Below are positions 8,200 to 63,700 of a stretch of DNA of 64,000 nucleotides, piece by piece. Position 1 is the stretch's first letter. Every line of letters begins with the position of its first letter. The notes beneath the pieces were generated by a model. The model searched no databases. It was not told where the DNA came from and saw only the letters and a program-made list of their open reading frames with translations. The position numbers were made by a program, and so were the translations under genes. The DNA comes from Kappaphycus alvarezii (taxonomy: Eukaryota > Rhodophyta > Florideophyceae > Gigartinales > Solieriaceae), in contig NADL03000491.1 of the NCBI GenBank assembly GCA_002205965.3, positions 62,001 to 126,000 on the forward strand, written 5' to 3'.

Positions 8200-11100
8200 T
8201 GGGCCCCACTCCGCCCGACCGCGGGCCTTCCACCCAATCCCAATCTCAAGACGGTATCAGCGACCGAAATGGAAATTCACCGAAACCCTTTCACGCCTCA
8301 CGCGGCACACCTCTCCAACATAGCACTGTGGCCTATCACTAATACTTCGACAACACGACGCATAAATTCTCCTATCCGACGACTTCAACCTCTCAAATCA
8401 CATAGGTATCGACCTTAACCACTACACCAAAGCGGCCGCTAGCTGCGCAATCATGATCATGGCTAGCCTCGAAACCGGAGTCATCCTGATAATTCCTCCC
8501 CAATCCTACATAAAGCCGCCCGCGGTGATCCTCAACGCTCTCAAGTCTGCTCTTACTACCAACACTGAAATGATGCATCGCACCCTCAAGGCAGAGGCAA
8601 AAAACATTCAACTTCAACCAGGCGACAACATACTAGAATTCGTCGAGAAAAACCGGACGCTACGTGCCGGTATGATAGCGGCCGAATACCCCGACATTAC
8701 CAACGAGCACACAACTACACAGCTCATGCTCGAAGGACTCCTCAAACACCCAGCGTACACCAACCTGGTGCGCAGAGCTCAATTCACCCGTGCCCACGCC
8801 TCGATTGACAAGCTCCACGCAGCTCTTCACAACGTGCAGTAATTCGACGCCAAACACGCCCCACAGCCTCAACCCCTCGCAGGAGATGCCCCGCAACCCC
8901 ACACCGGCCACGGCCGCGGCCGCGACAGAGGTCGCTACAGCAACCGCTACTCGCACCACCCACCTCGTCTCTCTCTAGAGCAACTAGCCCATATTAGCCA
9001 AGTAATCAATACCAATACTGCGCGGGGTATCATGCAGCATGGTGGCCGCCGCGGCCAAGGACCTAGAGACCGAAGAGGAAACCAACGCAACCCACCAAAC
9101 GCCAACGCGGTGGCCACCGAAGGCCTGCTACTGAACGAAGACCAACTCCGCCGCCCATCCGGGGCACTCAATCCAACTCCCACCAGCAAACCCAAAACGC
9201 AAGCGATTTTACGTACTCTATGGATTCCGCAGCTCACCCCACCAACATCCATCACACTGTCCCCCAGCTTCGCAAGCTAGACCAACCTCTGACAACCCAG
9301 ACCGCTAACGGAACCTCTTCCAACACAACCAATGCGGCACAGCTTCATCTGAAAACGAGTGACCGTAACGATATCTAGCTCTCCGCGTTATACAACCCCA
9401 CCTTCAAAAAGAACCTAATTTCAGCCCATGACATCGCTCGCAAGTATGGCCCAATTGTCATTCTGCCTTACGCAGCCCACATTTTAGACAAACGGAACCT
9501 ATCCAGACGCCTAGGAATCGCACTCTGGGCAGGTTACGGCTATCGTCTTCAACTCTTACCACCCACAGCCCAAGCGGCCCGTACTGTTCCCACCGCTCAG
9601 AATTCTAAAGCCAAAAGTACAAAAAGACCCACTGTACTCACCGAACATCACACACCATCCCGTCCGACCAGGACGAGATCCCGTCATCCCTCCCCCCAAG
9701 ACACCCCTCAGTCCAACCGTTTCACCCCGGATCAATCCCCACAAATTACCGCCCCACAACCGCCTCCGCAAAGAGTTCCACTCCTGGGGCCTCACGTTCA
9801 ACCATGTTCAACCAGCAACTTTACAAAAATGACCAAAGAAAACCTACTCAACATACCAGATATTCTCAAAAGACCCCCACCCAAACTCACATACACCGGT
9901 TGTGCCCACAGCAAGCGCCGATCACCACACACACGTACGCCGTCGTAGTTGCCCTCTTGACTGATGTATGCGGCCCTATTCACCCGCGATCACTCCAGGA
10001 AAACACCTACGCGATTTTGTTTGTCGACATAGCCTCCCGATACACAATGGCATACTTCGCCCCCTCTCTCTAACACGTCATCACCGCACTCACACATGCA
10101 CCAAACACCATCTAAACACTTCACGGCAAATCACAGCAGCTATTCACAACAGACAACGCATAAGAATACCTCTCAAAGGCGGCCCAAGCCATTTACACGC
10201 AACATGGCATCAGACAAAAACCAAGATGCCATTTACACAGCAACATAAATCAATCGCGGAACGAGTCCTCGGCACACTGACAGCCGCCACACGCGCAGCA
10301 CTGTACCACTCCCAGCTACCTAATACGTACTGGGAGCACGCTGTGCGAAATGCCGTATTCAAGTATAACATTACGCCGCACAAAACCACCAAAGCACTCC
10401 CATACACAGCTTGGTACGGTCACCCCCCCAACCTCCTCAAGCTGTACCCATTCGGCAGATTCGGCACTGTGTACCACAAACGCGATAAGGCCAAAATCAA
10501 GAAACTGGATGCCCGCGCATTCCCGCGCGGTACCTACACGTAAATGACATGAGAAACGTCACTGTATTGAACCTCACCTCCGGCACCACTCATCGCATAA
10601 GCACAGTTGACTCCATACCATACAACCCCGACCAAGACCCCGTCCGCACATCCTATCCCATACCCTCTGCAGCCTACCTGACCAAGATAACCCACAGTAC
10701 ACCCCAAACGGTCACACCTGCCACCCCACCTCCACGGTCACACCGCCAAGCGCAATCGGTTCCCGGTGCAGCACAGTGGGCAGCTGCCCACAACTCCGAA
10801 CTCTCCAAACTACACAAAGACCACACCTTTCAATGGATCCCCAAACATCAACTACCCCCCGTACCAAACTCATTCCTCTCCTAATGACCTACCGATACAA
10901 ACGCACCACCACAGGAGCCCTACTCGAACGCAAAGCAAGATGTGCCTTACGAGGCGACAAAATGGTAGCCACTATACATTTCAGCCCGCACCACACCACC
11001 GCTTACACAGCCGAGAAAGCCACAGTAAGGCTCCTCCTCGCCATCTCGGCTGCAGAAAACATGCCACTCGAACACTCTGACATCAAATCCGCATTCGTCA

Positions 11101-12340
11101 AAGAAAATTACGGCTTTAATCAACCTTTCTACGTTAGACAACACCCAAGATTCGACGGCACCCTCGCACACCCAAAATATCCCGCCCGCGTACTCATTAA
11201 AAGCCTATATGGAACCCCATCCGGCGGATACTACTACTTGAGAGGAGCCGAAGAATGGAACACCCTCATTGGATTATCCCAGAGCCCAGACGACCCGTGC
11301 CTATTCCACCTACATCATTCACCAGAATCCCAAATACTCCTAGCCCTCACCATAGACGACTTCCTTGTCACCGCCTCTAACACAGGCCCAATCGATTGTC
11401 TTTACAAAGCGCTCACAGCTAAGTACCCTAACAAAGTCAAACGACTCGGCTTTCCCCCGCCTATCTCGGATGGCAGATTGAGCAAAAAACAGCAGGAGCC
11501 ATCAAAGTAAGCCAATCGAGCTACATAGTCAAAGCCCTTACAGTGATGAAGATGCAAGACTCCAACGGACGAGCATCCCCACGTTGAAGGAGCACGATAT
11601 CACGGCCCTGAACCGACCGGCACATGCATACATAACCAGCTCAAACAATACCAAGCAGTACCGGGCGAACTCCGCTACATAGCAGGCTGCGTAGGCCCCG
11701 ACATTACCTTCACAGTCAATTGTCTCAGCTGTGCAGCCTACAACCCAACCAAACGCCATTTGCTTATACTCAAGCACCTCCGCAGACACCTCCAAGAAGC
11801 AAAAGACCTAGGCCTTGTCTATAACCCCCACTTAGATACCTCCAAACACCCATTCACCACATTAACCGACGCCGATTATGCGAGGCACACAAAAGACAGG
11901 AAATCAATCACTGGCCACGTCCAACTCTCCATCAGCACACCAGTCTCTTGGGTCTCCACCAAGAAACACGTTCAAGCACCATCCACGTGTGAGGCGGAAG
12001 GCATTGCCGGCACCGCCGCGTGCAACACACACACTGGTTCCGAAGGGTACTCAAATTCATCCAACGACCGCAACGACCGATCCCAGTACTTATGGATAAT
12101 TTATCAGCCATTCGCGTAGCCAAAAAAAACGCCTCAGCCAAGCATCGCAAATTTATTGATGTCAAGCACCACTACCTCCGCGAACACATCAAACGCGGAC
12201 GTATAACTCTCACACATATCCACACTCGAAAAATGCTCGCGGACATACTTACCAAACCCCTCCGAAAGCAATTATTCACTCACCTTCGAGACAAACTCAA
12301 CATCCGGTAATGCCTTCCCCCCCTGCTGCCGCACGAGGGG
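8200..12340 (+). mobile_element. Ty1/copia-like LTR retrotransposon, broken
   Basis: Cytosine-rich copia-type element in the order gag, integrase, RT, RNase H, which is diagnostic for Ty1/copia. The gag-like segment is at about 8.45-8.84 kb, and integrase segments lie at about 9.95-10.5 kb (YWEHAVRNAVFKYN). The RT is at about 10.9-11.5 kb, with DIKSAF and the LTIDDF active-site region. RNase H is at about 11.85-12.3 kb (KHRKFIDVKHHYLRE, then LADILTKPL). A short purine stretch, gagggg, is followed by TGTCATCAGG at 12342, a plausible start of the 3' LTR. No matching 5' LTR was found by eye. It is non-functional with several breaks, but younger-looking than the 4-6.7 kb fossil. Confidence 0.88.
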
Positions 12341-29406: not shown

Positions 29407-29549
29407 TAGGATCAGTCAGAACCTGGCATGCGCATGACGCTGCTACGCTGCTAACCGCTTTACTATGTGAGCTTACACCCACCCACCTCCATCCCTCATG
29501 GAACATGTAGCCTCACTCTACAAATATTAGAATACTCCAATTTCCCCCT

Positions 29550-30130
29550 ATGTCGGTGCCATTGAAATGCCACCACTGCCGGCAGGACATGGATGTCCAC
29601 GGTGACCATGCCGCCAACCGCTGCGTCTCAGAATTTGGACGCATCCACCGCCACAACTCTGTTCGCAATGTGTTCGCGTGGCACGTGTTCCGCGCCGCCG
29701 GCCTTGACTACGAGTTCGAAGTTGAGAATCTCCTCCCCGGGACGGATTACAGGCCCGCTGACATCCTCCTCGACCACCCCCCCCGTGACACTGAAGCTGG
29801 CTTAACAGACCGACCCATCGCATGTGACATCGCCGTTACGTCACCGTTCAAGCAGACCTCCATCACCAAAGCGACGCAAGTCGCCGGTGGGGCTGCCGCC
29901 CTCACGCATCAACGCAAGGTCCAGGACCTACAGCACAAGCTGTTAAGGCGCCTAGTCCCCCCTCTCTGCCCTCCCGCGACCCAGGTTTCCGATTCCAGCC
30001 TCTGGTTTTCGACTCCCTCGGTGCCCCTTCTCCGGATACCGCATTATTCATCGAACAGTTTGTACCACGCGTAGCCAGGAAATGCCACACCTCGGACGCT
30101 ACGATTCGCACACGCATCTACCAGCGTATC
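29550..30130 (+). mobile_element. LINE tail fragment, family B
   Basis: Codes for the C-terminal endonuclease region of the family whose larger copy sits at 50.7-54.9 kb. Visible are a zinc-binding pattern (CHHCRQDM...GDHAANRC), GRIHRHNSVRNVF, the nuclease-like YRPADILL and then IACDIAVTSPF. This is the PD-(D/E)XK arrangement of restriction-like endonuclease LINEs. The 5' part is missing and the fragment starts abruptly. Confidence 0.75.
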
Positions 30131-30560: not shown

Positions 30561-33500
30561 CTAAGCCCCAGAGGTGTTCAAACATGCCTCAACCTGAACT
30601 TTTCCAGTCCCGAAGCGTAATCCCTGAAGATGGGTCCGAATTACCACCTGATTTACCGTGCTGTTAGTTTTTGAGCTCTCCACAGAATAACCGTCAAGTG
30701 CAGCGACACATGAACCCTCTCCCAGACCCAAACCTTTATCCAGGCAAAGTCCGGCTGCACGTGCCATTGCAGAGATCGTTTCGCCGGTATCAGAGAGATC
30801 TACGGAAAACGTGCCACTCGACTTGACAGTATTTTGCTCTACAACAAAGTCCGCCTCAGAACTGCGGGCTACCCGTTTCCTCCTTCTCCGAGTGTTAGAG
30901 CCAAACTCAGCCGTGTTGACATCTGCACAAACATCGTCCCGTGCCTTCTCAAGTCGTTGCCTCAGGCAGTCAACTTCTTTCTTCGCCTTCTTTGTCTTGA
31001 TTGGCGCTTCTTCGATAACATCCGCTGTCGAAAACACAAAGACAATTGGGCCAAACGAACGCGCACGTTTCCTTTTCCCAGAAGGGGCAGTTTCCTTCAC
31101 ATCTACAGGCACGTAGAGATTTTTGGCACGCCTGTAGACTCTCCCCAAAGTGAGTTGAAGAAGTACACGTTCTTCCGTGAGCCTTGATAAGTCGAGACCG
31201 CTAGAAGCGCGAATCGTGGCATGTTGTTCCTGAGTCGCAGTTTTCCCGGCCATGAAAGCAGCAGCGTCAAGTACGCCGGGCAATCCGCTATCGTCGAAGT
31301 CGACCAGTATTGTACTCATTGCTCCCAATTCTGAAACCTGTCCGGAGTCAGGATTGTCTGTGACCTGACAACCTGTTCTGTCCTGGGCAGTTCTGTCAAG
31401 GAGTGAACTCTTGGATTTAACTTCATGCATTTCACTATCATTTGATTCCCCTTGCGAATCACTGGTGACCGGCAGAATACGAGCATCCGCAGAATTAATG
31501 TTGTTTGGGACGAGTTTGGGGCTCCCGAAAAGTCCGGTTGCTTTTCCATGGAGCTCAGGAGAGGCACCGTGGCCATCAGCTGGCTTGAGTCCAAACGTAG
31601 TTGATGGTTTCGAACTTCCGAACTGGGCTGATTTAGAGACTTCCTGCATTTCCGCTGGGGCTCTGATTGAACCAGCAGTTGCAACAGCCATCTGAGACCT
31701 TCGGTCCTCCCCAAGTTCCTGTGCGCCGTTCATGCTTGACTTTTCCTGTTTCCACTGGGCATTTTTTCGGAATGCCGTAATGCTGTCATAAAGTGAGCGA
31801 ATCTTTGTCAACTCATCGTGGTATTCGGTTGTAGTTGCCTTTATCTTGGTGTCTGTATCCATCTTAGCACGGCTTTCCTCACCCCTCACAAGATCTTCAG
31901 ATGCAGTAGCAGTGCTTAAACCGTTCTGCTCATGTGCTTCATCCCCATTGACTTGCCTGTCCAAGTTATTGTTATTCTTTCCGGTCTCTTTATTCATTGC
32001 GAGACGATGACCCCTCGCCTTATCTTCTTCATGAGTGGTTAGTTTCTCGTGCTTTGCCTCAGTTTGTGTCATTAACTCATCATGACTCTGGCCAAGAATA
32101 TCTCGAGAGACAGAGAGAAGTTGTAGGTCAAAACCAGTGTTTTCAGTTAGCGGCTTCAAAAGATCCAAACAATCTGCCGAGAAACGAAGATCATTGCCGG
32201 CATTTAAAGTTTCCACAACGTTCCCATGCTTGCCTATACACTGCAGGACAAGAGGTATTCGATTTTTCTTTAAGAGCGGCACAGATTTAGTCCACCTTCT
32301 CTTTCGAATCTCTCCATTCGCATCTTTGTACGATTTGAACCCGGTTTGAGATAGATCGACCTCGAGAATTCGAGCCGCCATATGCCTCAGGACATGGAGG
32401 TGAGTTGCGGGTGATCGTAATTCATTGTATTGTGCCGTTGCCATGATAACTTGAACATCCTCTATCATTTGAACATCATCAACAATTATCTGCACCGTGC
32501 CAGATGACTCCCTGTCAATTTTCCCCCATACAACAACACGAGAACCCTCCCCGACAACCGGAGATGACTCCAGAGCGGCTTGTCCAGAAGAATCTGATTC
32601 CGGAGTGTTAAGGTCGTGACCTTCAGAAATGACGGCTGGTTTTTCTAATTTTGTAACTCTTTGTTCTACAACGTCGAACGATGTCGGGAAGACGACACCA
32701 GGTACACGACCTGTTGAATCCTCAATTGTCCACTTGGCCATCTTCTTTCCTTTCGCTGTTGTCATCCGTTTAAGATCTGTGATACAGGACATGATCATTA
32801 CTCCACTCCCATCTGGTAACGATGAGGTGAACATTGACGAACTGTCTTCACTAGCGTCGTCATCATCCAGTCCATCGCCGATAATTAGGGAGACCGGAGT
32901 ACAACCAAGATGTTTGCCTACATGTCGAAATTCGAGCAATGGGTGCCCAGAGGCGTAGAAGCCCAGAGTTGCTTTCTCCCCAGAAAGTCTTTCAAGCGAG
33001 GAAAAATCAGGCAGTGTTAGTGAGTCCTTCTCCAACTGCATTTCTGCCTCCTCCCAAACAAGAGCTTCCTCCTTAGCAGCTGCCTCCTCCTCTTCATCTG
33101 AAAGCTGTTTTCGCTCTCGACGTTTCTTCTTATCTCGAAGTTTTCTTCGGAGCGCTAGCAATGTATCTAGATGATCAAGCAATACCTTTCGATTTGGATG
33201 TAAGTCATCGAAGGACCCTGCTTGAATTAAGGCACCCATCGCCCTCTTATTCAGGACTCTAAGGTTGACCCGTTCGATCAGGTCTACAATGTTCCTGAAG
33301 GGACCCCGTTCATTTCTCTCCTCTAATAGAGCTGTACTGACAGACTCCCCTACCGTCTTCACCGCTTCCAAGCCGAAAAGTACGATTGCTTCACCATTTT
33401 CGCGCCTATCTACAGTAAAGCCAAGTTGGGACTTGTTCACCGAGGGAGGTGCCACTCGCACACCTGACAGGTTTGCATCTGCCAAGTATCGCACCAACTT

Positions 33501-36119
33501 ATCTGATTGATTCATGTTTGACCTCAAAAGAGCTGCGGAGTACTCAACTGGATAGTTTGCTTTCAAGAAAGCTGTTTGATATGTCAGGTATGCATATGCT
33601 GTTGAGTGGGACTTGTTGAAGCAATATTCTGCAAACCTTGTCATCATGTCGTAAAGCTCCTCGGCTTTTTCTGCGGCACTCCTCGATTTTCAGCCCCTGC
33701 GAGAAACCTTGACCGCTCCTGTTCCATAATTTCTGTTTTCTTTTTGCCCATGGCTCTACGCAGAATGTCAGCTTGACCAAGACTGTAGCCTGCAAGATCT
33801 CGGGCAATTCTCATGATTTGTTCTTGGTACACCATGACTCCGTATGTTTCTTTCAGAATTGGCTCCAGTAGAGGGTGGTCATATTCAATGGGGTCGATAC
33901 CATGCTTTCTCCGAATAAACTTCGGGATGAGGCCAGCATCAAGAGGCCCTGGCCTATACAGTGCAAGGATTGAGGAAATATCCTCAAGGCTTGAGGGACG
34001 TAGCTCTCGCACAATATTGCGCATGCCACCCGACGCATCTAACTGAAATATTCCATCCAGTTCACCCTCAGCCAGCAGCTGATACGTTTTAGCATCATTC
34101 AAAGGAAGCGCATCAACTGAAAAGTCCAAGTCTTCTTTGATGCCTCGCTCTCGCCGTCCCTCATTTATGAACTTCAGGGCCGTTTCGATCACGGTTAGGT
34201 TTTTAGCCCCAAGAAGTCCATCTTGAGTAGCCCTAAGGATTCAACATCTTCCATGGCGTACTGCGTAATTGTCTCTCCATGCTTTGCTTTGCTCAACGGC
34301 ACAACATCTGTTAGCGGTGAAGATGAGATGACGACACCGGCAGCATGAATACCATAGGTTTTATTTGCCCCTCAATTCTCCGCGCCTTATCGATCCACTC
34401 ACTGTAAGACGGCGTGCGCTCCATAGCATGCCTGAATTCGGGGCTTGGTGACTTTTCGGATAACATCTGAGTGAGGGATGCCGGCTTCCCTCGCAGCACG
34501 GGAATAAGCTTTGCCAACCGATCAGCTTCCGAATAGGGAACGCTGTGAACCCTCGCAACATCTTTTAGCACGGCCTTGCTTGTGAGCCTGTTGAAAGTTA
34601 TGATCTGCGCGACGCGGTCGGCGCCGTACCGCCTGCTGACGTAGGAAATTACCTCATCTCTTCCTTGCACTGAAAAATCAGTGTCAATGTCCGGCATACT
34701 CTTGCGCTCGGGGTTCAGAAACCTTTCAAACAACAAGTTAAATGCGATAGGGTCAACATCTGTAATTCGTAGCGTGAATGCCACCAAGGACCCCGCAGCG
34801 GATCCTCGCCCCGGCCCTACAGGGATATTCTGCTCCCTCGCGTATCTGATGTAGTCCCAAACAACTAAGAAATATGTCGAAAACCCCATCTGTGCAATCA
34901 TTTCCAGTTCAAACTCTAATCTCTTGATGTATTCCGTTTCTAGTGACGCATCCATGAGCCCTGCCGCTTGCCGGGCATCTAGCCTCATCCTGAGGCCCTT
35001 CCTAGCGATATGTGCAAGGTACGAATCGTGGGAGTTGTCAAAGCCGTCTGGCACTGGAAAATCAGGGATACGCGTTTCCCCAAACAGGTCATACTTCTCA
35101 ACTTTACCCGCAACCTCAACAGTATTCGACAATGCACGATCAACGTCCTCCCTGTCTAAATGGTCAACAAAGCATTGGCGCATTTCTTCAACAGACTTGA
35201 AGTACTCGTTGCCAGCATACCGTAGGCGATTATCATCGGTTAGGAGCTTTCCTGTTTGAATACATATCATGGCGTCATGAGCATCCGCGTCTAGACAGCT
35301 CGTGAAATGGCTATCATTAGTAGCAATGACAGGAATGCCCAGCTCCTTCGCCAAGTTCACTACCACAGGGTTCACGCGTCTATCCTCGGCACTTCCGTGA
35401 TCCTGAATTTCCAGGTAGTAATCAGGACCGAATACATCTCGATACCACATCGCAACGGAACGAGCGCTGGTGACATCATCGTTTAAAATCGCCTGGGCAA
35501 TCTCACCGCCCAGACATGCACTGCTTACCATGAGACCCTCCCGATATTGATAAAGCAATGCTTTGTTGACACATGGCCGAGCGAAAATCCCACGCCCGAC
35601 ACGGCCGTGCAAGTGGGCCAAGGAGGTGAGTTTAACGAGATTTCTGTACCCTGTGGTGTTCTTTGCGAGAACAATTAAATGGTAGCGTCTGCGGGTGGGT
35701 TCCTCCTCACGCTCTTCGAAACCGTCGTCGACAATATACATTTCATTTCCTATGATCGGCTTAACCCCCGTCCCAGCGCAAGCTCTCACCAACTGGATCG
35801 CCCCGTATAAAACGCCATGATCTGTTAACGCTAGAGCTGGAACTCCGAGGTTCTCCGCTCTTTGTACTAGCGAGGGCAATTGGCTGGCCCCGTCGAGCAA
35901 AGAAAAATCGGAATGGACGTGGAGCGGCACATATTGTGTTGGTGGATCGGTAGGTTGGAGGCAGGCACAGGGTTTAGGACGCGCGTACACGCGCTTAAGA
36001 TGCGAATGAGGAAGCCGGTTTGATAGTCCCGCACTGTTAGTTCGCAGCCTCTTTGCTGTGAGATGTGAGGAAGAGGAGAGGAAAGGGATTACCGGACGCC
36101 TATGGGCAGAGGTTGACAT
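30561..36119 (-). CDS. dnaE: DNA polymerase III alpha subunit (DnaE), nuclear, probably organelle-targeted
   Basis: Replicative C-family DNA polymerase of bacterial type. From the ATG at 36119, residues 1-60 are Ser/Arg/Pro-rich and look like an organellar transit peptide. The PHP domain follows ([12 protein letters not shown] about 67, [22 protein letters not shown] about 270). The palm is at about 433-481, with [10 protein letters not shown] and PDIDTDF carrying two catalytic Asp; LLKMDFLGL supplies the third. Next come [11 protein letters not shown], a helix-hairpin-helix block ([15 protein letters not shown]), [10 protein letters not shown] and an OB fold. About 620 C-terminal residues have no recognised domain. 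Full length is about 1,853 residues against 1,160 in E. coli. As given, the frame breaks three times, each explained by one missing A in a coding-strand A-run (plus-strand T-runs at 34364-34366, 34200-34204 and 33687-33690). A longer open frame to 36221 has no ATG. Target organelle: plastid or mitochondrion, undecided. Confidence 0.9.
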
Positions 36120-36224
36120 GCTCAGTGGTAAACTGTGAGAGCGAAGTGGTTGCGGTAAGGGTGATGGGCAGAGGGTCTGGTACGTCTGTAGCCTGACAAA
36201 GCACAAAAGATGGACTTTCACGAG

Positions 36225-36420
36225 ATCACCCCAGTGCAGTACAGCTTGTACTGTACAGTCCGTGCTGTAAAGTATGTGAAGTACAGTACAGTACAGCGCA
36301 GTAGTGTGACTCTATCTCGTGCTTTACTGTTCAGTGCGGGGTTAACTTGTTGTTTTACTGTAATAAGTACTGTACTGTGCGTTTGATACTGTAATGTGTA
36401 GTACAGTAGTTGAGCTGAGT
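36225..36420. repeat. GTACTGTAC palindrome cluster upstream of dnaE
   Basis: Overlapping copies of TGTACTGTACAG, AGTACAGTACAGTACAG and AGTACTGTACTGTG within 200 bp, about 110 bp upstream of the proposed dnaE start. Confidence 0.85.
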
Positions 36421-36449
36421 TGGATGTTGGTTCGCAACAAAAAAGATAT

Positions 36450-36985
36450 TTTTCTACTGTACAACTGACGGGTGTTGATCCTGTCGCGTCGGGTTCTAGA
36501 GTCAAGAAAGTCCATTCCAACCTCCATCGTCACGGATGCCTGGCCAGGAGTGGCTGCCATTTTCGCGGCCAGGTCTCTTTGCCTCCGTCTTCCTGCAATA
36601 CTAGCAAAGTCTCGCGCTTTTCGTGCTCCCATTGACATAAAACTCTCCAGGTATGGCGACGATACAGTTACGTCATACGCCACTGGACTTGGAAGCGGGG
36701 TATTCGCTGCATTAAAACGCGGGTGCACAAGAATGCCCGCCGGACGCCCGCTCATTCCGAGTGGTTTCCCTTGTACTAAATGCCGACTCTGGCTGCTTTG
36801 AACAGCTCTCGGCCAAAGACTTTCACCACTGCTGTGTGTCAGTTGGTCCATCCAAGATCTTTGATACGTAAGTCTGCCGCGTGGTCTCCTTAATGGTCCA
36901 TGGCCCCGTGGCACCTCGCGACTGCACTGCAGCGGCGTGGTGTCATTAAACACACCAACTCCCAGGAGGCAACGAAGCTTCACCG
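36450..36985 (-). mobile_element. LINE tail fragment, family B-like
   Basis: The minus strand shows PAGILVHP and then PVAYDVTVSSPYLESF, matching RPADIL and DVTV-SP of the family-B endonuclease. It is followed by an ARKARDFASIAGRRRQRDL segment. The zinc-knuckle part is absent or decayed. Its 3' end faces the palindrome cluster at 36225-36420. It lies in the shared 5' region of dnaE and the VPS52-like gene. Confidence 0.55.
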
Positions 36986-37089
36986 ACTACATCTCGTCGT
37001 ACGGTCCCGCTGACCTCGGACGGATGCGTGGCAAGGAAGGCTGCATTCATTATCATAGTAATCATCACTTAATCTTTTTTCAGTAGAGA

Positions 37090-43069: not shown

Positions 43070-44496
43070 CTACCCGCGTCCAGCAGCAACCCTTCTGGGG
43101 GTCATAAACTCTTCTCCACAAGAGAGCCACAATGTATCATCTGGACACATTTCATCCAAAAGCGTAATTTCTGCGCCGCTCCTGGTAAACACCCGAGAAA
43201 GTGGCCCTTCGACTTGGAGCTTGTCCTCCGCATGTTGAAAGAACTCTTCCATGGTCTGCGGCAGCATGAGGGCCTTTCCGCCGCCTTCCCTGCCGTTTAC
43301 ATGCACAGTGACACGTATCTTGGGAATCTGTGCGGGAGCCATTACGGCCGCCATACTGGGATTCCCGACGGAAGAATTCAAGAATGGCTGCGCCATTGAG
43401 GCATACTGCAGGCCTAGACTAGTCACAGGAAGCACCACGGGGACAGTGGAGAGGCCATTCGAGTTGGCCACAACTGATAACGAGTTCGCCGCGCCGGACG
43501 ACGTCTGTGGAGTCTGAAGTGCGCTCGTTCCAATCGGAGAAGAGAGTGTCCCCGACGTGGTTGGTGCCGCCGGGGCAGCGGATAATCCCAGTAGCCCGTC
43601 CGCTTCTCCATTCATGGCGAGGTTCAAGCCAGTGCCCATGCACATCGATGTGGCCAGCGCAAAGTCATTTGTCGTTGTCGAAGTCGAGGCGTCCATAGTA
43701 AGAGGGACGCTAGTTTCCCAGGCTGATGAGGTGCCAGCGGCACGGCAGTGCAAAACGGACGGGAGACGATCGGAGATGATGCCATGGAAGACAACGGGAC
43801 TGTCGTCATCTTAGCCGTCTGGGAGGAAGTCTGGACAAGCCTTGGGAGACATTCTGCGAGGCTGTGGCTGTCCAGGCGGCGGTCAATCTCTGCAAATCTG
43901 TCGTGACGTCGTCCTCAGTAATGTCATGGATCGACTTTTTCTTACGCTGGTCATCGCTCTTAGCCTGCCTCAAGAAGAACTTTTGGGCATGAGACTGACA
44001 CTGATTGGCAGTCCTTGAGCCGACCTCTCCGGCGATTTCCTTCCACTTGCCCTTGCCATAGCGCTTCATGGCGGTAAGAAACTTACGATGCTCATCTTCA
44101 GTCCACGAGCGCTTAAAGCGGGACTTTTGCGGAGGGATCGACAAACGGCGAGGTGCGGTGCCATTGGAATGTAAGGCGGAAGAAGAGGAGGGTAGAAGTG
44201 CGTTGGCAGCGTCTGAGGCGCCGTTGGCGGGCGAGGGCGTTTGGCTGCGTTATTAATCTTGGCATGGAATGGACAAGCGCCTATACGACCACAGAGTCTT
44301 CCCCTTTGATTGCGGACACCACAGACTTCATAGCCTCTGCCGTTGAATGCTTGATCTCCGACGACAAACACATCGTTGGGGGCCGGCGGGGGGGTGTTGC
44401 GGGATTCAATTGCGGAGTGGAGGGTGGTGGTGGGGCTGCAGGGGCTAGGGGTAACGGAACTGCGGTCCCGGGAGCAATGTGACGGTGAGGTGCCAT
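43070..44496 (-). CDS. SHAQKYF-class Myb regulator with Cys/His motif and KHA-like domain
   Basis: Probable nuclear DNA-binding protein. The N-terminal region is Pro-rich and then carries CGVRNQRGRLCGRIGACPFH, a small Cys/His cluster that could bind zinc. The Myb repeat follows with RSWTEDEHRKFL, GKWKEIAG and QCQSHAQKFFLR, the SHAQKYF class known from plant circadian and light regulators. After an Ser/Ala/Thr-rich linker comes a C-terminal domain with MLPQTMEEFFQHAEDKL and SGAEITLLDEMCPDDTLWL, resembling the KHA oligomerisation domain. The parts lie in different frames. Four one-base losses would explain this; the clearest are in plus-strand T-runs at 44240-44242 and 43714-43716, while two others (about 44350 and between 43800 and 43870) are less certain. 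The start at 44496 is inferred. Length would be about 476 residues. Confidence 0.75.
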
Positions 44497-55040: not shown

Positions 55041-55318
55041 AGTACAATAACAGCAATGAACGTTGATGATCCGGACCACAGAAAAATCACTAATTGAATT
55101 CTGTGCCTTCAGCGAAGAGATCTTGTCCGTGAGTCGAATCGAGGGATCCTAAAACTTGAGCAGACCTAAGCAATTGCCCATGAAAACATGGCGCTGAGAC
55201 TCCGAAACCTCCCCATCCATAAATTCCTCTCTTGCAACGCCGACTGGTCCTCCGTGAGGACGCACATCGTCAACAACTGGCCCATGACCAGACCTGAAAC
55301 CATACCCCATCACTAAAA

Positions 55319-56794
55319 ATGCGCCTATCATTCATCCCCGCCCGAATGCCCAGCCCTCCTTCGCCGCAAACGCACCGCAAGCCCTCCATCACCTTCCACG
55401 CCTCCCGCCCAGTATGCAGCGCCCTTTCCTCCAAAACGCCTAAACCGAAAACCATAGGGATTGCCGGCGCCGGGCTAGCAGGTCTAGCCACTGCGCTTGC
55501 ATTGGTACGAACTCCGGGCACCGGTGTGGAGCATGTCACGATGTTCGAGCCACGCGCGGCGCTGGACATGGGTCTGGGCGGTCCGTTGAATATTAACGGC
55601 GGCGCGGCTGTCTTGGTCAAGTGTTATGGCCTTGACCTTTGGCGGTATGCGCGCCGCATGGATTTTGTCGTGGCAAGGGAGACTGGTGGGGATGTGCTCT
55701 TTGAGGTTGAGGTGGGAAAGTTCCTGAGAATGAACCGACGCGCTGGGGAATTTCTTGGGGATGGCGACCAGCACCTCTGCATGACGATCATGCGTGACCA
55801 GTTGCAGCAGTTGCTCTTCCACGAGGTGCAGGTGGACCAGGTTACAATTTGCAGAGGGCCCGGTTATAAGGTTACAGATGTAGTTCACAGGTACGGTCGA
55901 CCGCGCTTTGTGCTGGCAAGTGGGGATGAAACACAGTCATTTGACCTTGTTATCGGTGCCGACGGTATCCGTTCCACGGTCAGAGCATATGTCGCCGGCG
56001 AAACAACACCACCCAGATATAGTGGGCTTCGTGTCCAGTGGGCCATCAACCCAAACGGAACCTCCGAGTTGGCCAGAAACACTGTGGAGCAATGGTTTGG
56101 AGACGGCGGCTACGCCTTGAGATATGCAGCGGGTCCCGATAATTCGGACACAGAGGCCTTGGCACTGACATTTCGCGATGATCGACGAGTTGCACAGAAC
56201 GAGTCTTACAAAGATGAAGCTGGGGTACGAGAAGATTTCAGAGTCAGAATGGAGCAATGTGGCATGCCTACTGCCCTCAGGGACACGTTTGCAAATGCCA
56301 CAAAGTTTATTGAAACAGGGGTTTACTATCACACCAAACTTCCGTCGTGGTTTTCAGGAGGATCTTGCGTCCTTGTCGGAGATGCAGGTAAGTTTTTCGC
56401 CCTTCCGTTTGATTCATAGTGGAAACAGGATACGGACCACATAACTAACAATCTCCCACACACGGAATCAAACGTATTAGCTCACGCAATGCCCCCGTTT
56501 CTTGGCCAAGGCGCCAATCAGGCAATCCAGGATGCCAGGGCCTTAGCAGTGGCCCTATCCAGAATCGGCATAGATTCGGACGGACTAGGGCAGGCACTAC
56601 ATCGGTATCAGAGCATTCGCAAACGTCCCGTTGAAGCTATAATGGAGAGTTCTCGACTGATCGGAAACCTCGAAACCCAGCAGGGTCCCCTTGGTAAAAC
56701 TCTGCGCAACAATCTCTTTCGCATCGCCGGGCTCACTGGAGCTGCAGGTAATGCTTTCATTCAAGCGGCCACCCCTCGCGTTGATATGGGTTAA
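55319..56794 (+). CDS. FAD-dependent monooxygenase, zeaxanthin-epoxidase-like, one intron
   Basis: Flavin aromatic-ring/epoxidase-type monooxygenase. Two exons (55319-56387 and 56481-56794) give 460 residues. Residues 1-45 (MRLSFIPARMPSPPSPQ...) look like a plastid transit peptide. The FAD-binding GxGxxG is in IGIAGAGLAGLATALALV (about 43-60), the DG motif in VIGADGIRSTVRAY (about 218-231), and the GD motif in VLVGDAAHAMPPFLGQG, which is restored only when the intron is removed. QAIQDARALAVALSRIG follows. Plant zeaxanthin epoxidase is longer and carries an FHA domain, absent here. Related candidates are salicylate-hydroxylase or kynurenine-monooxygenase types, so the substrate is not settled. 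The gene converges with UGGT, with 142 bp between the stops. Confidence 0.85.
56388..56480 (+). other. spliceosomal intron in the FAD monooxygenase gene
   Basis: 93 bp, from GTAAGT to TTAG. A CTAAC branch-type motif at 56445-56449 lies about 32 nt before the 3' end. Splicing joins GAT GCA G to CT CAC GCA and rebuilds the conserved GDAAHAMPP motif, which is strong support. Without splicing the frame ends in a stop within the intron. Confidence 0.93.
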
Positions 56795-56936
56795 ATGTAC
56801 AGTATAACATTTCCAGACGTCGGCAATCCTATTGCTAGCTGTTTATCCAACAGAGTCAGCAATCTTGAGGGAAGATATTGCGGGGGTGATTGCTGCCCTC
56901 ATGATTTCATGTAGATTTCTCGCTGCGAGCGTGATG

Positions 56937-59900
56937 CTACAGCTCTATCTTTACGGACTCATCATCTGTCAACGGGGCTTCACATTTGTCTTTCAAGTGA
57001 CATATCGTACTGCCACTGTTGTTCGTGCCTTCTTGCTGCCTCGTAGGTTGACTATGTGCAATTTCTCTGTAAATTTCCTCCGTCATCTCTGAGGCAAAGT
57101 CATCGTATTCAACCCATTCACTTATTATTCGTTGGCGCTTTTCAGTTTCGGTTCTTTGGTGAGCGGATTGTTGCAAAGATCAATGGCCTTTGCTGTCTTT
57201 TTGCTTTCATCATCGCACCATGTCTCACACCACAACCAATCTGCGGGGAGATCAAAGATAGGAACCACTTGACTAGTACCTAGTGAACTTACAGAGGCGT
57301 AGTTGGGTAAGTCCTGGTCCAAGTTGGCAAGAGAATTGGGGTCAGCACTCAGGCTCTGGTATATCATGCGCAATGTATCCCCCGCCGCAGTTTCTCGGAA
57401 GCGGTTAAGATCGACAACGTAGAGGGCCGAAATTCTGTATTTAGCCCCACGCAATGTTTCTTGCCAGAATCCCGTCTCCCAAAAGCGAAAGGGCTCCAAT
57501 TCCTTTCTAGAGTCACAAAATGGAACATAACCGTAAGGTGCACCCTCCAAGTCAATATCCATTAATTCTGCCAGATCTCCACGGATTACTTGGTCAGAGT
57601 CCACAAAAATAATTCTCCCAACATCAAGGGGAAACAACACGTCTAAAAACAAGATCTTGTAAGCCCAGATAATGCGTTGCTTTTCAGTCTGTGCTCGTAG
57701 CCATATCGGCCATTTGTACGTAACCAACCCGATTTCACAACCCAGTCTCTTCGCAAGAGAAGGAAGCATCTTCTTGAACGATGGTGAAAGGTAGTTCTCA
57801 AGCAACCAGAATTTGACAGGTCTGCTTGCATGCTTGGTTGCGCTTATCATCATAATCTTCATAAACCTTTCGTAGAGGTGACCAGTGGCTACTGTAAAGA
57901 CATTTATTCGCTCCGTATTCGATTCCGAATCGCTCGACTCCAACTTGGACCTCCACTCTTTCCCTTTGTACAGGGATTTCAGCATTAATCCTATGCGTCC
58001 ACCCATCGACGCAGGTGATGGAGTGTGTAATGCGCTTGAGGGGTCCAAGACGGATTTGTCCTCCATTCCTTGCTTTCGCTGGACACGCAGAAGTATACCA
58101 CGAGCGCCGCTCAAGGATTCCACAAGAATTGGAACCCTTCCAAAATCATCAGCCTTGTATACGGTCTTGATCAATCCTGAGTACATCTCCATTGCTTTCA
58201 AGGAAAATACTGTGGAGCTTGGACCATATGCTAGTCTAAGAAGCCACCGCCCCGGACGAGGAACTCTGAGTTGAAAGTAACCCAAGTTTGCCATCACAAG
58301 GGTATCTGTGGAAACACCGGCATCGTTCTCCAGTACAAGTTTCAACCCTCGTGGCGGGTCCTCTTTCTCATCAATACATGAACCCTCCACGATCAGATCC
58401 TTGAGCTGGTACTCTGCATGGAACGTGTGAACATTGTCTGGAAGGCTTGTCAAAACAATGTTATCCATGTCATAATTTGTTGCATGGGATGCTACAAACC
58501 ATGTCCTTGGAGGCTCAACTGAAACGGTGATGACCTTTTGATGTGGGAGTCGAGAGAAAGTAGCCAATGGTGGGATTCTTGTGTTAGAGCCTTCACTAAA
58601 GCTTGCGTGCGGACTGACTAGAAACTTTGAAAATTCCGACGGCGCTTTGATGCGCTCGCTGATTTGCGCGGCCTCCGGGATGAAGAGCACTTCCATCGCG
58701 AATTGGTCAGAACTGTATGCATCGATAAGGGCCGACAACATTGCACACGAAACAAATGCGTTTTCCCCAAACGGATTAACCACAGCAGAAATGCTCAGTA
58801 CGACTGCTTGCCCGTTTGTACATCCTTTTTGAAGGTCAAAGACGAGACATTGCTGACAGCAATGGCCTTACGCAATTCTGCTATGCTTAGCTGCGGCTCT
58901 CTTGAGGATCTTAACGTCTTGTCAGACGCGCATGCGCTCCTTACATCTGCTCCCAGAGTCGTATCAATGAGGAAGGCATCATCAGATAAATTGGAGGATG
59001 ATGAGATCCGCTCCATCTCTGTAGCTACTTCAACCTTTAGATCGTCAACTGTTTTGATGCCCGAGGCAACCACTACCTTTCCGTTAATTGCAATAAACAC
59101 TTCTTCGTCAGTGTTACCCCCTGGTGAATGCTCCATCACTGCACTGTGGATAGCTGAATCAGCTTCTAAGAATGCAAAACGCGCCCTTGTTTGAATGGCA
59201 AAACTAGATGATGCCAATTCCCGTACCAGGGAAGCAATCCTTTGAAACCTCTCATCTTGGCGATTGGCACCAATCACCCACACAGTAATTTTGCTCCCGC
59301 CAAAGAGCTCTTTGTCGGAGTCTTTTCAAAGAGCTCTTTGTCGGAGTCTTTTTTCAGGTAATCTATGTGTCGTAGCTTTTCGCGGAGTGCAAATATCACA
59401 GATCCTGGGACTCGTCCCTCGTCATCATCAGTTTTGAAACGAGAAAGTCGTGTGTCCCCTCTTTTCATTTCCTGACTCAGCCCACCGACAACGATGAGCC
59501 TTGAGTCTTGCGTAACCCACTGTTCAAAATCATCCCCTCCTTCATCAGATGCACTTCTCGATTCTGAACTCAGAAACGTGGCAATGCGACTTTGTTCGGC
59601 CAAGGCAACGGTGATGACGTCTGATGATATATCCTTCAAAACCACCCCATTCAAAATCCCAAGCAACGAAAATTGCTGGGTACTTGTAACATCATCATGC
59701 TCACCCATGCCATCGGTTCTTTCAGAAAATAATTCCGCCTCTCTGGCAAAAGCCGTTGCTTCGTGCAACGTTTGCTTGATATTTTCGTCACGATCCAAAA
59801 CATCTGCCGCTGACTGGTACTCACCACCTAGTTTACCTGCCATTTGCTGAAATGCAACCTCAACAATTTGCTCCGTCAGCGGTACCTGCTGGAAACCACC

Positions 59901-61797
59901 ACCAATGTAGTGTGTAACTTGCTGAATCATCTGCAAAAAGAGAGCAGATGTTTTCCGTCCTTTTAAACGGAGGAAGTAATGAAATCCAGCTGCAATGAGA
60001 GATGATACTCTCCCATTCGGTACCATGACAAGCCCAATACGAATTGGTAAGTTGCTGCGGACAATAGTCGTGGGAATCCCGGTGTACACAAATTGCTGAG
60101 GATCTCCAGCATCGAGGGCCACTACGAGCGACAGGTGGTGGGCCTTCACTCTGGCAAGTTTTAGATGCTCGGTCCCCGGTGCCGCACCTTTCCTTTCTTG
60201 AGAGTTTATGAGGTTCTGAAAGCGCGCAATGTCTTCCTGATTGTGGGCATCTAGGCTCGGCCAATCTTTGTACCTACTGTCGTTGTGAAGGTCGTTGAAC
60301 CAAACAAGAGAAGAATTCAGTCTTCCCCCCAGATTCAGATCAACACGTAACCTATTTTTTGTTCCATCGCCATCTTCTGGAGTTACTGCTACTTGCTCTG
60401 CACCTTCTTCCCCCAGTACAACCTGTCGGTTCAACTCGGTAATTGTCGAAAATGACAAACATTGAAATATTTCCTCCATCCCCGGGATGGAAGATGTTAG
60501 ATCGACAGGATACCCATTGATGAACAAATGATCCCCCGCGACGACTTCTCGAAACTTCCGAACACTCCTTACCGTTCCTTTGATGTCATTGCTTTCTGCC
60601 TCATCAAATTCAGTGAACCGCTTGGATCTGACAACTGCAGGGGTATCTTCAGCAAAGGACCTCGCCAATTCCAATGCTTTCTCCAGGCTGTCACCAGAAT
60701 TCCTCTTGATAAATTGAAGAGCTTTGAAGCCTTTGTAAGCTCGCTCCTCGTCCTTCACATCTTTGTCCTTGGCAGTGTCCACCTCAGCCCACTCGATATC
60801 GCCGTTTGCGTCTTCAACGGCCGTCTGTTGACAATTTTGGTCCCCGAACGCACAATCTTGGAAAAGCATGGTTGAAAACACTCGATCGTCAACAACCTTG
60901 AACTCAGTACTCCTCAAAGCCGCCTTGATGATGAAGCCCTGCAATCCAGGTCCTCTTGCCTCCCCCTCGGAATCTCCCATAGCTGGGCTCCAAAACCGCA
61001 GCAAGTATTGGGTAGAACAATCTCCCGCGCTAATCTTGTCCGAAACTTTGTCAAGCCAGTCAGGGAACTTTGCAGAAAGAATATCCGCGAACAACATGAC
61101 CTGATCCTGACGTTCTACACGTGGACACCCTGCAGTCAAGTCAATCTCCCGAGGCAGCTGCAGTGCGACAGGAAGCAGCCCTTTGTCAGTGCTATTCCAT
61201 TCCATATTTGGACAACCTTTGCAGCCATCAATGTGTTCGGAGTCAGTAAGGAGGGCGGCAGTATTGAGAGCATAATCGATGCGAACGGCAAACACGTGAT
61301 GATGGCGAATGGATGAATCAAAGGCAAGTAGGACCTCATTCGCAACCGAATGGTGAAATTGAACATGTGGGGAATACTGACGGGCATGAAGTACCCAGGC
61401 GAATGTTGCTCTGACCAGCTCGTGAGATGCATGTTTCTCCAAGGCATCGAGAAGCAGCTGATGTTCAAGACGATGTGAAATGGAGGCCTCGTTGGACAGG
61501 TGCGGTTTAGCAAGGGCAGTCAAAGATTGCAAAAAGGGAAGCACCCGGCGATTTCCCATTACCTGTGCGAGGGATGATGGTGTTAGCAAATTAACACATT
61601 CAAGAATTTACACGCGAGGAGTGTACGGATCGGCGAGGACTTACCTGAGCAACCCATGCCGTTGCTTCGGAGGAAATCGGGGTGTGAGGCCATGATGCGT
61701 GCAGACCAATGCTCACCGATCGAGATGTAGCAGGTGCGGAAAAAAACAAGAGGGCCTGGAGAAAGTGAAGGAAAATGAATAGAAGTTGAAGTTTCAT
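56937..61797 (-). CDS. UGGT: UDP-glucose:glycoprotein glucosyltransferase (UGGT)
   Basis: ER folding sensor that re-glucosylates misfolded N-glycoproteins so that calnexin/calreticulin can rebind them. Exon 1 (61797-61645) encodes MKLQLLFIFLHFLQALLFF, a clear signal peptide. An 82-bp intron follows, then about 1,200 residues of thioredoxin-like sensor domains. The C-terminal GT24 catalytic domain runs from about residue 1,260, with INVFTVATGHLYERFMKIM, the DxD motif in FVDSDQVIRGDL (about 1,365), APYGYVPFCDSR, ISALYVVDLNRFR, LANLDQDLPNYAS, LWCETWCDDESKK and NNPLTKEPK. Total length would be about 1,584 residues (human UGGT1 about 1,555), ending in KIEL, a KDEL-like ER retrieval signal. The sequence as given breaks at one exact 26-bp duplication (59301-59352) and at two single missing bases in plus-strand T-runs (58826-58830 and 57139-57142). 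Without the last repair the protein would end at 57125 and lack the retrieval signal. Confidence 0.93.
59301..59352 (-). repeat. exact 26-bp tandem duplication inside UGGT
   Basis: Two identical 26-mers, 59301-59326 and 59327-59352, each starting CAAAGAGCTCTTTG. With one copy the reading runs KELFGGSKITVWVIGA. With two, the frame shifts and stops within about 20 codons. Confidence 0.9.
61563..61644 (-). other. spliceosomal intron after the UGGT signal peptide exon
   Basis: 82 bp on the minus strand. The donor is CAG/GTAAGT at 61644, the acceptor GCACAG at 61563, and a CTAAC motif at 61586-61582 lies about 20 nt before the acceptor. It joins WVAQ to VMGNRRVLPF in frame and supplies the signal peptide that the downstream frame lacks. 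Confidence 0.9.
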
Positions 61798-62389: not shown

Positions 62390-63700
62390 TCATCGCGCAC
62401 AAATGCATAGAGAAACAAAGTCTTTGATTTCGTCTCTGTGGGCGATATAGGCGGCGCCGCCGGCCTTTTGTGCGGCTTTTGTGCGCACGCCTTGTGTGAA
62501 CGGGGAGACAGCGGTAAGGTCACAGGCTATAGGGCGGACCTGTTGGCCATTGGACAGGGGCGGGCGTTGAACGAGAATGTCCGCAAGGCGGATATTCGTT
62601 CCCGGGACAAGGAGCGGGACCTCGTATCGGCAGTCCATGCCCGCTGCGCGAGCAACGTGGTAGGCGAAGACGTTGCGTAGCGAGTTGTGGTGATGCGGGC
62701 GACCGAAACCGGCAGGGCAGAGGTCCGCCGAATGGTCCCCGAGCACGTCCACAGTTTGGTTGCAGTGGGCGCGAATGCGCGGGAGGGAGTCATCGTAGAC
62801 GGGGAAGCCGAGATGCCGGCGAAGCATAGTCTGCCAGTGGGCTGTTGACACCACCGTAGCGGCTGTGGGATGGGCGAAGAGAAATGCGGCGCCGGGGATG
62901 TTCCCGAACGCCAGGCCATGAATCCTGTGTCGAACATAATTGGTGCTGTGGTCAGCCGGGTTGGGGTGTGCCACCCACGATTCGTCGCGCCAGTGGACCC
63001 TTGCCTTTGCCTCTTGCTGCACACCATTTAGATGGGTTCGGAGTTTGCATGGTCTGGCAGCAAGCAGGGCTGGGTCAAAGGGGCCGAGGTCAACGGAGTG
63101 CGGATGCCCGGGGATGCATAGCAGGAAGTCGCGGAGTCGCGGCAAGGCTTGTCGGAACAGAAACGCCTTGCCGCGCCGGTATCGGTGACCGAAGAGGGCG
63201 GTGGAACGTTACGTCGTGTACATTGCTGTTCTCTCGCGCGCCGGAGCCGCGTCGATGATGCCAGCGTTGACCGCTGCTTGAAGGAACGGGGAGATGAGGG
63301 CAAATCCGCGACCTCCCAGGCAGGTGGGTAGCGTGGCATGTTCCCTGGAGGTATCCGACTGGGCGATCCTATGGAGCTCCGTGTAACACGATCTCTGCAG
63401 AGCGTCGAAGGCATGTGCACCAGGGACAGTGTGTTGTGGATCGGCAAGTCGAAACGCGTGGGTGGGGTTTGGTACGATTCGATCTTTCCCTGCATCAACC
63501 GGACTATGCCTTGCATCGGTGCATTCCTCGTCGTAAGCGATGGCGTCATGCGCCATCATGGCCATCGGGCTCGAACTCAGTGAGCCTATCGTTTTGCGGG
63601 CAATTGCACGAGCTGGTCGAGAAGACGAAAACATTGCTCTTTTGCGGCAGCGGCTCCGATGCATTCAATGCATCAGTTTCAGCCTCAACGCGTTCTCCGA
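62390..63700 (-). mobile_element. LINE tail, family B, 5'-truncated
   Basis: The minus strand reads an RT-downstream segment (AFDALQRSCYTELHRIAQSD, LPTCLGGRGFALISPFL) at about 63.4-63.25 kb. It continues with the zinc-knuckle and endonuclease part (IRAHCNQTV...GDHSADLC, HHHNSLRNVFAYH, IRLADILV and IACDLTAVSPF) to a stop near 62390. Block by block it parallels the copy at 50.7-54.9 kb. The RT catalytic domain is absent, as expected for 5' truncation during target-primed integration. At least one frame change (about 63.15 kb) is present. Confidence 0.8.

Follow-up and report, generated by a model that had tools for sequence, protein, structure and literature searches.

By published account, C-family DNA polymerases occur essentially only in bacteria (PMC3919608), and in published models the plastid DNA polymerase III (Pol III) has been replaced by POP, an enzyme of family A (PMC3914683). 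Among the closest described systems, Paulinella keeps a cyanobacterial Pol III alpha subunit in a photosynthetic eukaryote, encoded by the chromatophore together with beta, delta, delta' and gamma/tau (PMC9450145), and the cryptophyte Rhodomonas salina has a Pol III holoenzyme gene in its red-type plastid, dnaX, which is plastid-encoded, specifies the tau/gamma subunit and is of Firmicute origin (PMC2412073). Here, we analyse a DnaE-type Pol III alpha homologue (36119–30561, minus strand; ~1853 residues in a joined reading) on a 64,000-nucleotide stretch of Kappaphycus alvarezii contig NADL03000491.1 (positions 62,001 to 126,000; hereafter the window). Unlike the Paulinella and Rhodomonas genes, this copy is nuclear, and it presumably shares the compartment and job of POP, a polymerase of another family. 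On balance, the sequence leads us to favour, if only somewhat, the reading that the nucleus of a eukaryote with plastids (probably a red alga) carries the gene for a Pol III catalytic subunit derived from an oxygenic cyanobacterium, in the simplest case the ancestor of the plastid, and that the product does its work in that organelle with no clamp contact of the usual kind. The original prediction, made from the DNA letters, had claimed a clash with the published view of the organelle polymerase, and the account of POP replacing plastid Pol III bears this out (PMC3914683). Among the papers listed by searches of open-licence full text, none was found to describe a nuclear algal DnaE, subscription papers and eukaryote sequence databases lying outside that search.

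Domain composition, active sites and the missing clamp motif

Searched against the PDB, the joined reading matched Taq DnaE best (E 2.9e-248); the DnaE proteins of E. coli and M. tuberculosis came next, and PolC scored much lower. Across three open reading frames (ORFs), Pfam recovered PHP (6.4e-46), DNA_pol3_alpha (4.5e-72), DNA_pol3_finger (9.5e-59) and HHH_6 (3.9e-25) in that order; together with the PDB match to Taq DnaE, this confirms the earlier call of a C-family polymerase gene at this place and on this strand. The best Pfam stretch for the OB fold (32466–32561) scores 26.8 bits, just below the cut-off of 27. Pfam, the cyanobacterial alignment and AlphaFold/Foldseek place PHP, Pol3 core, tandem helix-hairpin-helix (HhH), OB and C-terminal domain (CTD) in the order typical of DnaE1-type Pol III alpha. 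The top NCBIfam models for the polymerase ORF are the DnaE models PRK07374 and PRK09532, which, the ORF being only a fragment, stay below the cut-offs set for full-length proteins, and TIGR00594 exceeds its own cut-off. An assignment to the error-prone DnaE2 type was rejected, given that the DnaE2 model reaches 296 bits against 838 and that the CTD, never present in DnaE2 (PMC3919608), is found here.

For residue-level comparison, 68 unsplit bacterial frames were reduced to 62 that could be aligned and then to the 41 below 86% identity (38 cyanobacterial and 3 other). All nine PHP metal ligands (H67, H69, D76, H101, E126, H147, C202, D269 and H271) are kept in the algal polymerase, and these nine, together with the three palm aspartates, are identical in 38/38 cyanobacterial and 3/3 other sequences. 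The catalytic aspartates are those we presume from E. coli DnaE, and the nine-ligand list, likewise our assumption, agrees with the published composition of the site. That composition is five His, three Asp/Glu and one Cys, with five of the nine residues altered in E. coli DnaE (PMC5636811); an intact site is reported as the usual state in DnaE1 (PMC3919608). The motifs HVH, TDHG, NDSHF, PDIDTDF and LLKMDF, singled out in the original prediction, are all present; its view of the PHP site as special does not stand, 38/38 cyanobacteria having a complete one. Beyond the active sites, the algal polymerase keeps 183 of the 190 columns invariant in all 41 bacterial sequences and 308 of the 345 invariant in the 38 cyanobacteria, the clamp-binding region being lowest (14/19). 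Because the universal columns, the PHP ligands and the palm aspartates are retained to this degree, the polymerase core looks selected.

At the place aligned to the beta-clamp motif that follows the HhH region, the algal polymerase has no such motif, whereas all 38 cyanobacterial sequences have one (Q-x-x-[LI]-F in 36 and Q-x-x-[LI]-L in 2), as do two of the three outgroups. Elsewhere in the algal protein, the pattern Q-x-x-[LMI]-[FL] occurs only once, in a segment of the fingers that is itself conserved. Relaxing the clamp pattern yields three more places (residues 206, 285 and 846), all within PHP or fingers parts. According to Timinskas and colleagues, 99% of DnaE1 proteins carry the motif, the exceptions belonging to Deferribacteres and some Bacteroidetes (PMC3919608), so its loss is rare but has precedents. 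The DnaE1 proteins of those exceptions resemble the algal polymerase in lacking a recognisable clamp motif; unlike it, they are bacterial genes, and the passages describing them mention no comparable leader or tail (PMC3919608). Within the cyanobacterial set, the DnaE of the presumed Gloeomargarita genome (L186, G090) is unsplit and carries the variant clamp motif QADIF.

The 56-residue leader begins at the only ATG of its frame ahead of the PHP domain and contains no Asp or Glu, nine Ser and a single Phe (position 13), for a net charge of +10. The best cyanobacterial alignments begin only at about residues 48–63, with one at 37. On composition, this agrees with the organelle-like leader previously proposed and would fit an organelle presequence. 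Porphyra plastid precursors are reported to carry an N-terminal Phe motif (PMC2222254), to which Phe13 may correspond, a likeness that is suggestive only of a plastid presequence. At the other end, the ~620 C-terminal residues once described as lacking any recognisable domain proved to include the OB fold and CTD up to ~1340, a limit set by eye; the remaining ~513 residues are indeed without assignment. The open frame of this tail exceeds chance (0 of 20,000 first-order Markov sequences). Pfam returned nothing above cut-off for it (best YqcI, E 0.0064), and among 57 pattern matches in viral contigs there was no relative. Three basic clusters, between 31079 and 30870, might bind DNA. An AlphaFold model of residues 820–1853 built from 21 sequences (mean predicted local distance difference test score (pLDDT) 58; predicted template modelling score 0.49) folds the HhH-to-CTD part, which Foldseek matched to Taq PolIII alpha (4iqj; E 4e-24 over 525 columns; template modelling score 0.28 by query length); in the tail it has two long weak helices (~1347–1382 and 1409–1476), most of the remainder falling below pLDDT 50.

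Taken against cyanobacterial DnaE of the DnaE1 group, with which it shares domain order, 57–64% identity over the PHP-palm region, the nine PHP ligands and the catalytic aspartates, the algal copy differs in being nuclear, in having no intein split, in its added leader and tail, and in the missing clamp motif.

Features of the polymerase gene and its surroundings (positions in the window)
Feature	Position	Strand	Basis or match
N-terminal leader, residues 1–56, presequence-like	35952–36119	−	composition
PHP domain, residues 62–340	35100–35936	−	alignment; Pfam stretch 35397–35924
Palm/thumb part of core, PDIDTDF aspartates at residues 477/479	34359–35021	−	Pfam stretch
Frame change 1, net −1, run of four A	34352–34367	−	
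52-residue segment in the second frame, holding the third catalytic Asp (residue 635, in LLKMDFLGL)	34201–34356	−	
Frame change 2, net −1, run of five A	34193–34209	−	
Fingers domain	33683–34189	−	PF17657, 9.5e-59
Frame change 3, net −1, run of five A	33659–33676	−	
Tandem helix-hairpin-helix, HHH_6	33183–33464	−	PF14579, 3.9e-25
13-residue stretch aligned to the beta-clamp motif, residues 1001–1013, motif absent	33084–33122	−	
OB fold and C-terminal domain, to ~residue 1340	32103–32562	−	Pfam, alignment, model
Unique tail, residues 1341–1853 (~513 residues), mostly low-confidence in model	30564–32102	−	
LINE (long interspersed nuclear element) 3' piece, 486 bp downstream of the gene	29511–30074	+	51% identity over 136 residues to piece at 62390–63208
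Degenerate LINE 3' piece, 222 bp upstream of the gene	36342–36986	−	three other pieces matched at 29–36% identity over 39–82 residues (E 4e-6 to 6e-4)
93-bp GT-AG intron (GTAAGT...TTAG) between GDA and HAMPP, FAD-monooxygenase-like gene	56388–56480	+	placed by eye

Cyanobacterial ancestry and nuclear setting

When 84,980 species genomes were scanned by pattern, at least 583 related stretches were recovered, the best 80 of which were all cyanobacterial by title, at 57–62% identity. Within the phylum Cyanobacteria, 382 of 386 genomes matched, at up to 64%. Plasmids contributed 2020 matching records, with a top identity of 45.4% among the 30 matches listed. Two further plasmid records match the PHP-palm region in the 60–80% identity band.

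In a tree of 49 rows and 695 columns, the algal polymerase and 44 oxygenic cyanobacteria were separated with full support (100/100) from four Vampirovibrionia-like rows, a class name inferred from distance. A second tree, of 35 rows and 1079 columns, branched off first a row that we take to be Thermostichus and next one that we take to be Gloeomargarita, followed by the algal polymerase with the remaining cyanobacteria (94/93), and placed it outside both the alpha-cyanobacterial clade (98/98) and a 12-row clade (97/98). With other sets, the polymerase fell outside all sampled oxygenic rows (92 by the Shimodaira–Hasegawa-like approximate likelihood ratio test (SH-aLRT); 93) or, as in the 49-row tree, in an open fork at their base, and one best tree joined it weakly to alpha-cyanobacteria (75/64). 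Its branch was long in all trees, reaching 1.3–1.9 changes per column in the careful ones. Four short sequences (L003, L008, L068 and L079) were excluded from the trees, distant or unusable ones (L119, L120 and L123–L125) were left out of some sets, L157 had no usable frame, and Gloeobacter is not knowingly among the rows. By these trees, the polymerase is of an oxygenic cyanobacterial lineage and old, with the exact donor unsettled between trees, and endosymbiotic transfer would be the simplest origin. As an aside on sampling, three cyanobacterial genomes of 2.8–3.1 Mb (L102, L106 and L108; G273, G152 and G188), outside the 182 with a psb27 match, cluster near Microcystis and are, we presume, perhaps nitrogen-fixing diatom endosymbionts.

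The gene lies between two LINE pieces related to further pieces at 50.7–51.4 and 62.4–63.2 kb, and an intron-bearing, FAD-monooxygenase-like gene stands ~19 kb away. Because of these flanking LINE pieces and that GT-AG intron, we judge the setting to be nuclear. The earlier description of a C-family replicase among eukaryotic genes and next to a LINE was therefore correct, LINE pieces being present on both sides. Elsewhere in the window, Pfam matched UGGT, TsaD, an RVT_2 of Copia type and an L2 of bacterial type that is extended at its N terminus and, by its sequence, is taken here as the mitochondrial protein; two further matches, RVT_1 within a LINE and Vps52_CC within a probable tethering subunit, fall below their cut-offs. 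By codon position, the guanine-plus-cytosine (GC) content of the polymerase core (0.58/0.395/0.487) is close to that of the N-terminal part of UGGT (0.59/0.393/0.47).

Several neighbours deserve separate mention. The FAD-monooxygenase-like gene (55301–56800, plus strand), named by eye from a protein motif, has an N-terminal extension and one intron; its first exon gave no Pfam match at 0.001. A degenerate Copia-type retrotransposon occupies 8366–12119 (plus strand; RVT_2, E 2e-16), and an ORF at 43070–43810 (minus strand) contains a KHA domain, the potassium-channel dimerisation domain (E 2e-10), with no channel match in the same ORF. The UGGT gene (57125–61607, minus strand) runs through several ORFs; its frame changes at an exact tandem duplication of 26 bp (59301–59352), which is either an assembly fault or a real allele.

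The broken reading frame and competing explanations

The polymerase gene is split into ORFs at 36221–34311, 34192–33644 and 33647–30561, a further short segment separating the first from the second. To join these segments, the frame must change three times, by a net −1 at each site; every site has four or five consecutive A, and all fall within 709 bp (34367–33659), while A-runs of at least four make up only 113 of the 5559 bases of the gene. The original prediction mentioned neither these breaks nor the missing clamp motif. The joined reading aligns gap-free to bacterial DnaE at all three joins, has no stop made by substitution and leaves no cyanobacteria-invariant column in a gap. The three breaks are most likely homopolymer errors of the assembly, real mutation being a possible cause; their clustering speaks for some local fault. 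Introns inside the gene are not needed as an explanation, the breaks being net single-base changes in A-runs with gap-free alignment, and programmed frameshifting is thought unlikely, the three sites having no common slippery motif by eye.

The breaks bear directly on whether the gene is alive. A transferred dnaE recently turned into a pseudogene by real −1 deletions in A-runs would account for three interruptions so close together and would suit the LINE insertions on both sides; the confinement of every break to so scarce a sequence type, the lack of substitution stops, the retained universal columns and the open tail frame nonetheless make this improbable, and UGGT, interrupted at an exact tandem duplication, makes indel errors in the assembly plausible. 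A working gene that came horizontally, in a separate event, from a cyanobacterium other than the plastid ancestor, and that is used in the mitochondrion or nucleus, is unlikely in our view, if less so than a dead gene: it agrees with the one best tree that joins the polymerase to alpha-cyanobacteria, with the heterocystous, Pseudanabaena and mixed 12-row placements, none of which was rejected by the approximately unbiased (AU) test, and with the basic clusters of the tail, but it sits poorly with the long branch in all trees, with the full-length tree that keeps the polymerase outside both the alpha and the 12-row clades, and with the presequence-like leader. Contamination or a chimeric assembly joining bacterial to algal DNA is very unlikely. 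Relatives were sought only in prokaryotic, plasmid and viral collections, which leaves this explanation some room, but LINE pieces stand at 222 and 486 bp, the divergence is long, and the leader and tail are absent from the aligned cyanobacterial copies; the original prediction had asked for a position in a recent bacterial clade and bacterial flanks as the mark of contamination, and we found eukaryotic flanks and a long, deep branch. A viral or phage origin we reject, since the 1362 matching phage records are all below 60% (43% at the top among 15 listed) and the 29 IMG/VR loci reach 41%, against 57–64% in cyanobacteria.

A narrower form of the favoured reading, overlapping with it in probability, makes the enzyme a plastid repair or gap-filling polymerase beside POP as the copying enzyme. 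We regard this as a real contender, though held with less than even confidence: the loss of the clamp motif suits it, and organelle replication in plants and red algae is assigned to POP (PMC6523293, PMC3914683), while the far lower DnaE2 score, the retained CTD and the intact PHP site speak against it. Ranked together, work in the plastid, as helper or replicase, comes first, independent transfer second and a fresh pseudogene third.

Several observations weigh against a plastid polymerase of endosymbiotic origin. The sequence as given, with its three frame changes, does not encode a whole polymerase, and the algal protein keeps 96.3% of the universal columns, compared with at least 98.4% (mean 99.7%) for each cyanobacterium left out in turn. 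Placement inside Cyanobacteria shifts between trees, and the AU tests rejected no alternative: the first set gave p 0.28–0.46 for four placements (Gloeomargarita 0.28), and a longer set gave 0.165 for alpha-cyanobacteria, 0.25 for the 12-row clade and 0.085 for a sister position to all oxygenic rows, with the Gloeomargarita grouping near rejection at 0.07. Relative to the Paulinella lineage, the algal copy lies outside the alpha-cyanobacterial clade in the 35-row tree, yet that placement survives the AU test and appears weakly in one tree. Codon-position GC varies among the other neighbours (TsaD 0.68/0.48/0.62; L2 0.53/0.50/0.57), and base composition is weak evidence in any case. The basic clusters of the tail could equally be nuclear-import signals. 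Finally, a table by Moriyama and Sato has POP among its DNA polymerase entries for Cyanidioschyzon and Porphyridium.

A possible role in the plastid

If the gene descends from the plastid ancestor, as we favour, its product would be made in the cytosol and imported into the plastid through the basic, Ser-rich leader. There, it would elongate primers on the organelle's DNA through the usual DnaE chemistry and could use its PHP site to proofread in the 3'-5' direction, and, because the clamp motif is gone, it would not dock on the beta clamp in the usual way. A new charged segment and the basic tail might supply contacts to DNA or partners instead; alternatively, the enzyme might make only short stretches, in gap filling or primer extension, beside POP. 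An imported DnaE would also meet its ancestral partners: red algal plastids are reported to keep the cyanobacterial DnaB and DnaG (PMC3914683, PMC4166229), and a cyanobacterial DnaE would therefore fit that fork. A bolder and decidedly tentative proposal is that the ancestral fork of DnaB, DnaG and a nuclear DnaE still copies some plastids of the red lineage, with the clamp contact swapped for the lineage-specific charged segment and tail as the source of processivity, which would amount to a clamp-free bacterial-type replicase in an organelle.

Should a conserved nuclear DnaE prove true, at least one lineage would not have completed the replacement of Pol III by POP, and one could test whether the replicase of an organelle's founder is still able to copy that organelle's genome. 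The lost clamp motif, in turn, poses a specific question: what holds such a polymerase to DNA, or has it been turned to repair?

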